This document shows positions 14,273-19,723 of a stretch of 25,690 bases of DNA, piece after piece. Every line of letters begins with the position of its first letter. Position 1 is the stretch's first letter. Under the pieces are notes generated by a model, which was not told where the DNA came from, did not search any database, and saw only the letters and a program-made list of their open reading frames with translations. Source of the DNA: a virus. The translations under genes and the position numbers were made by a program. Location of the stretch: the IMG/VR virus record IMGVR_UViG_3300009285_003705, positions 1 through 25,690 of that record; one strand, given 5' to 3'.

Positions 14273-14380
14273 CTCAATCGTCAGAATCGGCCCCGCCAAT
14301 ATGCTAGGCCTGCGGATATTTGATTGTTGCCTATATTTTCGCGCTAAATCCTCTGCGCGTCAAGCCCTGCTAGTGAACGG

Positions 14381-14387
14381 GTTACGC
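14381..14387 (-). other. Possible R'' box of a second, incomplete attC site
   Basis: The stop codon of the second cassette-like ORF is in GCGTAAC, close to the attC R'' consensus RYYYAAC, and is followed by CCGTTCACTAGCAGGGC. Placing a stop codon inside this box is common in integron cassettes. I find no matching GTTRRRY box in the 140 bases beyond it, so the site is either degenerate or was cut off where the module joins the late genes. Confidence 0.3.
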
Positions 14388-14651
14388 TTTACCAGCGGGG
14401 CGGGTTGAATAAACCAACTTGCAATCTTTATGAAAATATTTACCACCACACTCACATTTGGGCAGAGCCTTAGCCCCGTCTGGTGCAAGCGTGTGTTCTA
14501 CCGCCTCAACATCCCAAGACGGAAAAATTGGCGTACCATTTAGGTTATACACGTGCATACGCAGGCACTTTATGTCAATCTCTTCCTGCGCCCATTCTGG
14601 CTCATCGGCCTCAACTTCAAAAACGTATGTTGCAGAAACTTTGTATTTCAT
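14382..14651 (-). CDS. Small protein in the second cassette position
   Basis: 89 residues from the ATG at 14651, which has GAGGT four bases upstream; an earlier in-frame ATG has no such site. The N-terminal half looks like beta-alpha-beta (MKYKVSATYVFEVEADEPEWAQEEIDIKC). The C-terminal part carries a metal-binding-like CECGGKYFHKDC. No family is recognised. It starts about 30 bases after the end of the attC-like site and ends in a TAAC box, the usual position of a gene in an integron cassette. It is followed by the terminator at 14.25 kb. Function unknown. Confidence 0.65.
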   Translation of the reverse strand: MKYKVSATYVFEVEADEPEWAQEEIDIKCLRMHVYNLNGTPIFPSWDVEAVEHTLAPDGAKALPKCECGGKYFHKDCKLVYSTRPAGKA

Positions 14652-14674
14652 AAATACCTCATTTGGCAAGGGGC

Positions 14675-14806
14675 GGTAGAACGGTTTGCGTTAGTGGTGT
14701 GTGGGAGGGCTAGGAAAATGCCTGAGAGCAGGATAAACCCGAAGCCAGAAAAATACTTGAAAACCGCGCAGAGTCCCACACATCCACTGCACGCATTGTT
14801 AGGTGC
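14675..14806 (-). other. attC: attC-like integron recombination site
   Basis: Read on the minus strand, the site opens with GCACCTAAC (R'' box ACCTAAC, a perfect RYYYAAC) followed by AATGC. The arm GCGTGCAGTGGATGTGTGGG (14775-14794) pairs with TCCCACACACCACTAACGC (14688-14706) leaving two bases unpaired on one arm, the extrahelical-base asymmetry that fixes attC strand choice. The far end is GTTCTAC (14676-14682), which keeps the GTT but not the full GTTRRRY consensus. Length (about 130 bases) is within the attC range, with a variable 67-base centre. The pairing and R'' box are seen directly; recombination activity is inferred. Confidence 0.68.
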
Positions 14807-14961
14807 GTAATAATTTGCGCAGGGTTCATTTTGTGGCAACGAGCATCGCTGTTACCACGGTTGATTTGCGGATTATCGCACTCATGCGACTCGTTATAGA
14901 CGCAGCCCCAAAACGGGCAAAGGCGAGGCGTATTCGGTATGCGACGGTTTTGTATTCTCAT
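14710..14961 (-). CDS. Cys-rich small protein in the first cassette position
   Basis: 83 residues. The ATG at 14961 lies three bases after GTTAGGTGC, so the core site itself offers an AGGTG ribosome-binding-like sequence. The first half is CPFWGCVYNESHECDNPQINRGNSDARCHKM: four cysteines and a histidine, plus an NRGNSDA segment I have a vague memory of in small phage proteins of unknown function; it probably binds a metal. The second half (from about THLTMRAVDV) is encoded by the attC-like site and looks unconstrained, which is normal for ORFs that run into an attC. The functional part is therefore probably residues 1-52. Direction is the same as the recombinase. Confidence 0.55.
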   Translation of the reverse strand: MRIQNRRIPNTPRLCPFWGCVYNESHECDNPQINRGNSDARCHKMNPAQIITHLTMRAVDVWDSARFSSIFLASGLSCSQAFS

Positions 14962-14964
14962 GTA

Positions 14965-14973
14965 GCACCTAAC
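14965..14973 (-). other. Integron core site (attI-like or cassette boundary) next to the recombinase stop codon
   Basis: The minus strand reads GTTAGGTGC, a perfect GTTRRRY core, six bases after the recombinase stop codon. It is an exact inverse match to the GCACCTAAC that opens the attC-like site 160 bases further on, so the two bracket the first cassette body. In reverse integrons attI lies between the 3' end of intI and the first cassette, as here. Confidence 0.55.
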
Positions 14974-14976
14974 TCA

Positions 14977-15005
14977 TTATTAGAGACCCACCGGGTCACT
15001 AATAA
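14977..15005. repeat. 29-bp near-perfect palindrome over the recombinase stop codon
   Basis: TTATTAGAGACCC and GGGTCACTAATAA are 13-base inverted arms with one mismatch around ACC. Read as 11-base arms around a 7-base centre (CCACCGG) it has the geometry of a core site for a tyrosine recombinase. It covers the last codons and the stop of the recombinase gene. It has no T-rich tail, so it is unlikely to be a terminator. Confidence 0.7.
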
Positions 15006-15951
15006 CCATACTGTCCAGGGGTGATTTCACCCCCGCGCCGATCCCAGCCACGTGGGTATAAACCATCGTGGTTTTTAGGTCCTTATGCCCGAGCAATTCC
15101 TGTATTTTCCGAATATCCGTTCCTCCTTGCAAAAGGTGAGTCGCAAACGAATGGCGAAACGTATGCGGACCCACCGGCTTCGTGATTCCCGATTCCATGG
15201 CCGCCTTGCGAACCGCTTTCTGCACCGAAGTCTCATAAAGGTGATGACGACGCACAACTCCACTTCTTGGATCGCGTGAAAACTGACCAGCAGGAAAAAC
15301 ATACTGCCAGCCCCATTCAAACTCCGCATTCAGATATTTCCTTGCCAGTGCGCCAGGCATTTCTACGCTTCCAAATCCTTTCTTCAAATCTTCCTCGTGT
15401 TGCAATTTAACATGCTTCAAATGATCTCTCAAGACTTCTATGAGAGACTCTGGCAACACCGTCACCCGATCCCGATTGCTCTTCGTGTCGCGCAGGGTGA
15501 TCGTTCGCAATTCCAAATCCACATCCTTCACGCGCAGGCGCATACATTCCATCAAACGCATTCCGCTGCCATACAGCAAAAAACCAATGATGTGATACAC
15601 CCCGCGCAGGCGGCACAATACCCGCTTCATCTCATCCACCGTCAACACCGTTGGAATATGCGTAGATCGCTTTGCACGCACCGCCTGGATGTTTTCAAAC
15701 GTCATGTTCAGCATCTCGCGGTACATAAACAGGATCGCCGCCAGCGCCTGATTCTGCGTGGATGCGCTCACGTCCAAATTCGCCAGGTGCGTCAAAAACT
15801 TCTCGATCTCCACCTGCCCCATTTCTTTCGGATGGCGAATTCCGTGAAATCGAATATAGCGCTCTGCCCAAGCCAGATAAGTTTTTTCGGTTTTATAAGC
15901 ATACTGCTTCACGCGGATCTTGTCCCGCATGTCATTTAGAAACTGCGACAT
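14980..15951 (-). CDS. intI: Integron-type tyrosine recombinase (IntI family)
   Basis: 323 residues, full length. The N-terminal core-binding domain reads [58 protein letters not shown], all typical of IntI. The catalytic set is complete: Arg132 ([18 protein letters not shown]), Lys157, His263-x-x-Arg266 ([12 protein letters not shown]), His289 (LLGHKD) and Tyr298 (TTMVYTH). The segment between boxes ([19 protein letters not shown], then [21 protein letters not shown], about 201-248) is the extra helix region that separates integron integrases from XerC/XerD and phage integrases and is needed for folded attC recognition. The start has GGAGGTGAGAG upstream and overlaps the previous gene by 20 bases. 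It is co-directional with its cassettes. Alternative role: integrase of the prophage itself. Confidence 0.93.
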
Positions 15952-16264: not shown

Positions 16265-16687
16265 CTACCATCCACCGACTGCGACACATTTTTCGAGCAT
16301 CCATTCGGTCTCTAAAAAAACCATCCCGAACAGATCCTTTCCGTGTTCCACGTCGCTGGGCAATCGTCGTAAAAAAATAAATCCAGGCGCATGACCAAAC
16401 AATCTATCGAACTCACCTATCGCTTCTAAAATTGCTTCGACCTCATGTTCCTCTCCAATCAATGACCAGACCACCAACCGTTTCGGCCTCGGCCAGTAAT
16501 CGCTTTTTATATCCAGCACGCCTCGATACGGCCACTCCGCCCGAAGATGATAGACCCCCGCCTCCTGCGTTTGCTTTACCGTCGCGCCCGCAGGCAACTG
16601 CATGGAAATGGGCGCATTGCTCATCACGTGCAATTTCCGCACGCAATCCTCGCTCACCACATCCTCCACCACGATCATCTCGTTCAT
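16265..16687 (-). CDS. Hypothetical phage protein
   Basis: 140 residues from the ATG at 16687, with GAGGAGGGGCG upstream; it overlaps the DUF5131 stop codon (ATGA). It is globular, soluble and mixed alpha/beta: MNEMIVVEDVVSEDCVRKL, PISMQLPAGATVKQTQEAGVYHL, YRGVLDIKSDYWPRPKRLVVWSLIGEEHEVEAILEAIGEFDRLFG. No membrane segment or known motif is evident, and I do not recognise the family. Overlaps on one side and a 12-base gap on the other place it in one operon with DUF5131 and the recombinase. Confidence 0.7.
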   Translation of the reverse strand: MNEMIVVEDVVSEDCVRKLHVMSNAPISMQLPAGATVKQTQEAGVYHLRAEWPYRGVLDIKSDYWPRPKRLVVWSLIGEEHEVEAILEAIGEFDRLFGHAPGFIFLRRLPSDVEHGKDLFGMVFLETEWMLEKCVAVGGW

Positions 16688-17559
16688 CGCCCCTCCTCGA
16701 CCATCGGACCATCCGACCATCCGACCATCCGACTAACCTCCCCATCCAACACATGCCCCGCCCGCGCCTTTCCCACACGGCACATCCACGCCCCGCTCTC
16801 GGCTGCCACAGGACACCAACCGAACGTAGTATCATCCGTCACCCACGACAGATGATCCAGCGGACACCATTCCCCCCACTGCTTGAACATCCACTTGATC
16901 CCATGCTCGCGGCACCACTCCCGATCCGCCCGCGGCCAGGCAGGATCCATTGGACGCGCACGCGGACCGCTCTCCCCGCCCGTCGCCATCCACTTCAAGA
17001 ATTCCCACCCGCTCCAGTTGATCACACCAATGCGCGGCTCACTCGAAACCCACGTATTCCAGCCCGCCGCCGCCAACCCCCACAGCGAATCCCGCCGCGC
17101 GTCCGCCCCCGCCTGGTTGCCTGCGCTCGTCCCGATCCACACGTGCTTCATCGGCCGCGTGCTCCCCGTCCCCATCACCATCGCATAATTCAGCACCTCC
17201 AGCGCCCGCTCAGGCCGTTTCGTGAGCAGGATATACGTGTGCCTCGGCGATTGATACATCACATCGAAGACTGCCGAAATGAACGCCACCGGCACAGACG
17301 GATGGAACAAGTCCCCCATCAAATTGACGGCGATCACCCGCGGCTTCCTCAGCCTAAGCGGATCCCCCAACCGATCGCTGATCATCGTCACCTGGTTTGT
17401 CCAATGCCCCTCGTCCGTCACCACGTTCTGATACTCCTCGCGCCCCATCGCCCGCAGACGTTTCGCCATCGTCTGCGCCCAACAATTCACGCACTCGGTT
17501 GAGACCATCGTGCATCCCACCGCAATATTCCACGAATAGTTCCACCAGTCTTTAGCCAT
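16684..17559 (-). CDS. DUF5131 family protein (phage Gp37/Gp68)
   Basis: 291 residues. It opens WWNYSWNIAVGCTMVSTECVNCWAQTMAKRL, the hallmark GCt.vS.gC.nCyAe signature of the Gp37/Gp68 family (DUF5131), with Cys16, Cys23 and Cys26 spaced C-x6-C-x2-C. Further family blocks: VNLMGDLFHPSVP, HTYILLTKRPERA, HVWIGTSAGNQ, WVSSEPRIGVINW, KWMATGGESGPRARPMDPAWPRADREWCREHGIKWMFKQWGEW. The Cys triad and barrel-like pattern recall radical-SAM enzymes; activity is unknown. It overlaps the ASCH-like gene upstream by 8 bases. Its last residues (about MVGWSDGPMVEEGR) come from an 8-base tandem repeat. A fragment of a second copy lies at 19219-19275. Confidence 0.9.
   Translation of the reverse strand: MAKDWWNYSWNIAVGCTMVSTECVNCWAQTMAKRLRAMGREEYQNVVTDEGHWTNQVTMISDRLGDPLRLRKPRVIAVNLMGDLFHPSVPVAFISAVFDVMYQSPRHTYILLTKRPERALEVLNYAMVMGTGSTRPMKHVWIGTSAGNQAGADARRDSLWGLAAAGWNTWVSSEPRIGVINWSGWEFLKWMATGGESGPRARPMDPAWPRADREWCREHGIKWMFKQWGEWCPLDHLSWVTDDTTFGWCPVAAESGAWMCRVGKARAGHVLDGEVSRMVGWSDGPMVEEGR
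16699..16733. repeat. Octamer tandem repeat (ACCATCCG) at the end of the DUF5131 gene
   Basis: GACCATCGG is followed by three ACCATCCG units. It encodes the last residues of the DUF5131 protein and so replaced or extended its C-terminus. Unit length is 8, unlike the 7-base repeats of the head genes. Confidence 0.8.
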
Positions 17560-18968: not shown

Positions 18969-19217
18969 CTAATCAAATGCTTCTTCGGTAAATGGAGCAG
19001 GGTGATAGGCTGTTCGCAATTGCACATATTGGCGAAACGCCCGTCGCAAATATTCAATAATCACATTCAGGTCTTCCTGATCGGTTACCCTAGGCATAAA
19101 GCCGTTCGTTGAAACGCCATTCCTTCCGGCGTTGATTTCAAAATCGCCATATTGATACCTGATCACCATTCCATCCATGATGGTCGGTGTGTCTTCTCGT
19201 TTGAATTCGATTGCCAT
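18969..19217 (-). CDS. Hypothetical small phage protein
   Basis: 82 residues from the ATG at 19217, chosen because GAGGCTGAG lies directly upstream and because the 27 codons before it include a relic of another gene in a different frame. Sequence: MAIEFKREDTPTIMDGMVIRYQYGDFEINAG, then GFMPRVTDQEDLNVIIEYLRRAFRQYVQLR. A beta-rich front and a helical LNVIIEYLRRAFRQY end. Not recognised. It sits 9 bases before the zinc-ribbon gene. Confidence 0.68.
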   Translation of the reverse strand: MAIEFKREDTPTIMDGMVIRYQYGDFEINAGRNGVSTNGFMPRVTDQEDLNVIIEYLRRAFRQYVQLRTAYHPAPFTEEAFD

Positions 19218-19218
19218 C

Positions 19219-19275
19219 TCAGCCTCGCTTTCCCATCGCCAGATTCCACGAATAGTTCCACCAATCTTTAGCCAT
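19219..19275 (-). pseudogene. Relic of a second DUF5131 gene (first 16 codons)
   Basis: The minus strand reads MAKDWWNYSWN plus LAMGKRG and a stop. The first eleven codons are nearly identical to the start of the DUF5131 gene at 17559. The shared DNA (17521-17569 and 19237-19285) is 49 bases with four mismatches and also covers the last codons (VHHG) of both ASCH-like genes. The rest of the copy is missing, and the next gene follows at once. This points to duplication of an ASCH-DUF5131 pair followed by a deletion, or to recombination between relatives. Confidence 0.8.
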
Positions 19276-19723
19276 GATGCACCTCTTCCGTAGGCCATGA
19301 ATTCAAATATTCGCGCTGATATTCATCTTTCGATAAGTACCGAACGAAATCCTTCGATGAGATCATGCTCTTCGTATCCCAAAAAATGATCTCGAAATCA
19401 ATCAGTACTTTCTCGCGATACGTTCGCCGAAAGAAATCAAAGAACTCGGGCAGGCCATCGAACCCATCGCCATAAGCCAATTGGACAATGCTGAAATCAA
19501 TATTTGCGGCAACGCGCTCCTCGAACGGCCAGATCACAATCGGCTCGACACGGACGCACGGAGCGCCTGCAATCAGTTTGCATGTCTTCGTCCGCATCCC
19601 CGAATACAGCCACAAAATATCTCCCACCTTCGTAGGATGCTTCCTGCGCTTCCTGATCGTGTGCGGCTTCGTCCCTGCAAGGATCTTCGGTACAAACCGC
19701 GCTTGAAAGTTATATGCTGGCAT
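19268..19723 (-). CDS. Second ASCH-domain-like protein
   Basis: 151 residues. N-terminal signature: YNFQARFVPKILAGTKPHTIRKRRKHPTKVGDILWLYSGMRTKTCKLI, matching the ASCH family pattern f..rf...I..GtKt.TIR..R.....vGd.l.ly.G.Rt..c. These PUA-like domains bind RNA or act on modified nucleosides. The middle has FFDFFRRTYREKVLIDFEIIFWD, the usual end of the fold, and an extra tail (KDFVRYLSKDEYQREYLNSW) follows. The start overlaps the CxxC protein gene by 14 bases. It ends EEVHHG, like the ASCH protein at 17552, because of the duplicated junction described at 19219-19275. Confidence 0.85.
   Translation of the reverse strand: MPAYNFQARFVPKILAGTKPHTIRKRRKHPTKVGDILWLYSGMRTKTCKLIAGAPCVRVEPIVIWPFEERVAANIDFSIVQLAYGDGFDGLPEFFDFFRRTYREKVLIDFEIIFWDTKSMISSKDFVRYLSKDEYQREYLNSWPTEEVHHG

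Follow-up and report, generated by a model that had tools for sequence, protein, structure and literature searches.

A putative complete integron with co-oriented integrase gene in a tailed phage whose hosts are probably Anaerolineales

Known phage integrons and the locus compared with them

Integrons carried by phages have already been described, for example in the Vibrio phages Va_90-11-286_p16 and Va_PF430-3_p42 and in the Shewanella prophage M16-3, and phage P1 is known to carry class 1 integrons (Qi et al. 2023, PMC9892861). The Vibrio phages carry parts of their host's integron and, overall, the complete phage integrons known previously amount to a handful from Proteobacteria, which are either of class 1 or pieces captured from a host (PMC9892861). 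A literature search, whose coverage was incomplete, found no paper describing integrons in phages of Chloroflexota. Atypical integrons from Treponema display an intI gene that is transcribed in the direction of the cassettes, the array being located downstream of intI (PMC3607928).

The window analysed here, i.e. the whole stretch of 25,690 bases of an IMG/VR virus record, is a fragment of a tailed phage. Positions 14372-15951 of its minus strand very probably make up a small but complete integron of this phage, which is probably one of Anaerolineales. The parts of this integron, the rule that governs its cassette junctions, the conservation of its attI and the different cassettes of its relatives can be read directly from the sequences.

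Like the phages cited above, which carry intI, attI and attC cassettes (or intI alone) on their genome, the window combines an integrase gene with recombination sites. However, it belongs to a phage-rich IntI clade that recurs, with its own attI, varied arrays and a co-oriented intI, in another phylum; the best identity of its IntI to the records of the described phages is about 42–48%. The co-oriented layout is shared with the Treponema integrons, which differ by being chromosomal and found in spirochaete hosts. The chromosomal integrons of Anaerolineales have the same attC type, and two of them (G055 and G039) also have the same attI and belong to the same IntI clade, whereas eight of the host IntIs that have an attC in reach, with about 52–58% IntI identity, are divergent from the array. 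The Vibrio IntI4 (PDB 2a3v) differs from the IntI of the window in host and attI, and presumably also in the orientation of its gene relative to the array. As phage integrons are already known, the locus is a recurrent, atypically oriented variant of them.

The minus strand of the window encodes a terminase, a portal protein, a head protease, a major head protein and a GH25 endolysin; the presence of terminase, portal, major head protein and lysis genes places the phage in Caudoviricetes. The window and two related sequences (G154 and L010) have their genes arranged as primase, small early genes, a DUF5131 gene, intI and the array; this array is followed by the lysis and packaging genes in the window and L010. 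The DUF5131 gene of the window (16684-17559) is directly upstream of intI, as it is in several of these phages. Portal relatives have flanking genes in common with the window but not the integrase, and the integron is therefore an optional module of a mosaic phage group. A full IntI was found in none of 23 portal or terminase relatives, many of which are fragments, and attC arrays in two of them. Joint inheritance of the integron and the portal gene, which had been considered, is unsupported by these 23 relatives.

Integrase gene, attI and cassettes

The intI gene (14980-15951, minus strand) encodes a protein of 323 aa that scores 424.9 bits against TIGR02249 (cutoff 265) and aligns over its full length with Vibrio IntI4 (282.6 bits). 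This alignment covers the catalytic residues and the integron-specific insertion, i.e. the additional domain; both comparisons identify an integron-type tyrosine recombinase. The attI site adjoining intI was recognized by comparison. Behind intI, 12 phage and chromosomal sequences are conserved up to TGAG|TT (GAAG|TT in one of them) and then diverge: conservation reaches at least 70% at 11 of the 20 positions before the crossover, versus one of the 20 positions located 9–28 after it. The attI core of the window, delimited by its conservation in the 12 relatives (14967-14990, minus strand), reads CTAATAATGAG|TTAGGT, with the crossover between G14973 and T14972. Next to attI, the 3' end of intI overlaps with an inverted repeat of 13 nt (92%; 14977-15005) that the closest relatives share; this repeat may serve as an accessory site for the integrase or form a hairpin.

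On the minus strand, the order is intI, attI (G|TT, 14973|14972), cassette 1 and cassette 2. The integrase gene and the cassettes are co-oriented instead of displaying the usual divergent layout; since a co-oriented layout is known from Treponema, this makes the locus a variant and does not exclude it from integrons. A promoter consensus scan for a Pc reading into the array gave matches no better than those of shuffles. A TTGACA promoter-like box was seen in a related leader that directly follows attI in two phages and is found behind the last attC of another one (L002 9039-9068, L005, L233 2170-2210); this leader may represent the original flank of attI or a cassette carrying a promoter.

Cassette 1 (291 bp; 14682-14972, minus strand) starts with TTAGGTGC behind the stop codon of the integrase gene and ends with attC1, its start being complementary to its own R'' region, GCACCTAAC. 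Its ORF (83 aa; 14710-14961, minus strand) runs into attC1 and belongs to no Pfam family; the matches of its product in hosts involve almost only the attC-coded part and were not counted as gene homology. Cassette 2 (304 bp; 14378-14681, minus strand) starts with TTCTACCGCC and ends with attC2; over 11 nt, its start is complementary to its own R'' region, GGCGGTAGAAC, with which it forms an inverted repeat. It carries an ORF of 89 aa from ATG (14382-14651, minus strand), whose product belongs to no Pfam family and has no match in 152 genomes of the host family. No whole cassette common to the window phage and a host was found in the host-family genomes.

attC sites and the junctions between cassettes

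An attC covariance model was built from 26 attC sites aligned from other viral contigs, the sites of the window being left out. In this alignment, the L''/L' stem is 99.2% paired, with both-sided (compensatory) changes in 10 of its 15 pairs, far above shuffled and slid controls; for the four outer R-box pairs, pairing reaches only 67%. With filters off, the model finds exactly two sites in the window, both on the minus strand: attC1 (14804-14676; 67.8 bits, E 7e-17) and attC2 (14501-14372; R'' GTAGAAC, R' GTTCACT; 49.3 bits, E 9e-12). The best non-attC match has an E of 0.7. Both sites display the R'', L'', L' and R' boxes and the extrahelical bases. The preliminary description had proposed attC1 as an attC site; the intI gene, attC2 and the GTTAGGT motif (14973-14967) just behind the stop codon of intI were absent from it.

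Most of what had been described for attC1, which is 175 bp downstream of the integrase gene, is borne out. The R'' box ACCTAAC, followed by AATGC, is read at 14804-14798 of the minus strand, and R' is indeed GTTCTAC (14682-14676). The arms 14688-14706 (19 nt) and 14774-14794 (21 nt) form 18 Watson-Crick pairs and one T-G pair, leaving two unpaired bases, T14783 and one of G14789 and C14790, both in the second arm; the same one-sided pattern of extrahelical bases is found throughout the alignment of the 26 viral attCs. Folding of 14670-14810 gave a z of -2.5 for the minus strand (one of 200 shuffles as good) and of -1.8 for the plus strand (11 of 200), the covariance model providing the stronger evidence. 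In addition, attC1 has near-twins in other viral arrays, which are 94% identical over 121 bp (L218) and 87% identical over 122 bp (L189). As judged from its sequence, the hairpin is a genuine integron attC carried by a virus of little-known Chloroflexota bacteria.

The suggestion that the R' box may be decayed does not hold. Indeed, GTTCTAC is made up of a G followed by the six bases with which cassette 2 begins, and the R'' region of cassette 2 itself gives exactly GTTCTACCGC when reverse-complemented. Beyond GTT, the bases at the R' of attC1 match the R'' region of cassette 2 at seven of seven positions and their own R'' at none of seven. Among 18 consecutive attC pairs from nine phage and host arrays, at least six of these seven bases match at 16 sites; overall, the seven bases behind GTT match the R'' region of the next cassette at 92%, versus 49% for their own and 46% for the background. 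Cassettes are therefore joined at G|TT, each R' being completed by the next cassette, and R' is unlike R'' because all the bases behind G|TT belong to that cassette. Only the G of R' belongs to the attC, the rest being the start of the next captured cassette. When R' is replaced by the start of the cassette itself (TTAGGT, as seen at attI), as in an excised circle, the predicted probability of R-box pairing is 0.9–1.0, versus at most 0.5 for the array form of attC1. The junction rule and this restored pairing indicate that attC1 is not decayed. Furthermore, GTTCTAC is found again as R' in other viral arrays, and this recurrence together with the junction rule rules out decay. It had also been put forward that a lack of pairing between R'' and R' would speak against an attC; the outer R-box bases of the array form are indeed unpaired, yet this carries no information, since the R' boxes of arrays are hybrid as a rule. 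More generally, an R' that fails to match R'' inside an array is no evidence of decay, a pitfall that is corrected here.

Relatives, proposed mechanism and possible role

In the IntI tree, the window, eight viral IntIs and one chromosomal IntI from Anaerolineales (L031) form a clade (98/98); three rows with long branches (L007, L023 and L028), probably resulting from reading-frame breaks in the fetched stretch, were not used for any claim. In the GTDB family of the L031 genome, attCs matching the model are present in 111 of 150 genomes, many of them with large arrays, and IntI matches at E 1e-60 or better in 85 of the 150. As attCs of one type are found in phages and in genomes of this family, the attC type is common to both; the host of the window phage is probably a member of the Anaerolineales (Chloroflexota). 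Among the IntI loci of the host family for which an attC is in reach, eight are divergent from this attC and three are co-oriented. Two of the latter, G108 and G154, correspond to phage contigs in MAGs, with the same integron layout as the window; the third one, G055, is surrounded by ordinary chromosomal genes, and the same is true of L031/G039, where attI alone can be seen.

A relative of IntI is encoded by 29 viral contigs. In those closest to the window, intI is followed downstream by one to four attCs with the same orientation. These contigs display the same integrase and attI followed by unrelated cassettes, which encode an N6/N4 DNA methyltransferase, a protein with a weak radical-SAM match, a Phage_ABA_S protein and unknowns. 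In G005, the array (36426-40724 of the contig) carries genes for an N6/N4 DNA methyltransferase and possibly for a radical-SAM protein and a second methyltransferase. Terminal repeats are present in G005 (123 bp) and G006 (127 bp). The contigs of G002 and G004 end immediately behind attI, and their arrays resume at the contig start. The last 127 bases of G002 recur at its start, where the left neighbour is an attC-like CCG instead of the GAG of attI, which suggests that one cassette lies behind more than one site in the population. In G003 (L004 2042-3075), the intI match ends at residue 298 and an attC follows immediately, both the C-terminal end of intI and the usual attI being absent, as if lost by deletion or recombination.

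Matches to the attC model were also obtained in 30 of 32 viral contigs that had been chosen for a 16-base attC end, with up to 13 per contig, and IntI exceeds the cutoff in three of the 32, all co-oriented; this choice biases the sample, which hence gives no frequency. These contigs are viral according to the IMG/VR classification, phage genes being checked for the window and its near relatives only. Many viral contigs (L114-L230) carry attC arrays of the type of the window, with up to 13 sites, and no full integrase.

In the mechanism that we propose by analogy with studied integrons, recombination activity, strand choice, expression and benefit are putative. The recombining (bottom) attC strand would be the plus strand of the window, which would fold into a hairpin once single-stranded. 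IntI would bind the R and L boxes and cut at the AAC/GTT crossover, joining a circular cassette to attI or excising a cassette. After each insertion, R' would consist of the G of the attC and of the bases with which the next cassette begins, as is seen at 14682-14676. Such insertions and excisions could allow the phage to acquire, discard and rearrange cassettes, for which it would rely on the attC type of the chromosomal integrons of its hosts. The recurrent phage-rich IntI clade, with its own attI, its atypical orientation and its varied host-type arrays, suggests that the integron is kept by some phages as a standing platform for gene exchange. It is conceivable, although we put it forward tentatively, that a resident and active integron of Anaerolineales phages swaps small accessory genes with the chromosomal integrons of the hosts, leading to a pool of cassettes that would be rapidly reshuffled, common to the phage population and inclusive of some DNA methyltransferases. 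Phage–host cassette traffic in Chloroflexota thus becomes directly testable.

Alternatively, a single capture from a host chromosome might have left the phage with a passive relic that has ceased to work. Chromosomal integrons of Anaerolineales that have the same attI and whose IntIs are 83% and 75% identical would fit this reading, as would the truncated intI of G003. This is nevertheless unlikely: the intI reading frame of the window is open and its catalytic motifs align with those of IntI4, many relatives retain an open intI while their cassettes differ, and the contig ends of G002 suggest two left neighbours for one cassette. It is still less probable that IntI is the lysogeny integrase of the phage, attI acting as attP and the phage entering an attC or attI of the host as a giant cassette, with the small cassettes as by-products. 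The window fragment carries no other recognized integrase, and Vibrio prophages flanked by attC sites have been described (PMC9892861). However, in most close relatives (G001, G002, G004, G005, G006 and G009), a separate tyrosine recombinase is encoded besides IntI, which makes a role of IntI in lysogeny improbable; moreover, the arrays contain small cassettes, not phages, and in the chromosomal relatives G055 and G039 the neighbours of intI are ordinary genes. Finally, that the hairpin would be a terminator or another structured element between phage gene blocks and no recombination site, in keeping with its location between early and lysis genes and with an Rfam scan of the window that matched no family, is for practical purposes refuted by the attC model and the junction rule, to which the adjacent IntI, the second attC, the near-twins in other arrays and the strong covariation are added.

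Besides the integron itself, a phage-backbone gene of the window (109 aa; 18969-19298) has a 60% identical homologue inside a cassette of the phage G002 (L233 1290-1715), the pair providing a case of one gene found both inside and outside an array.
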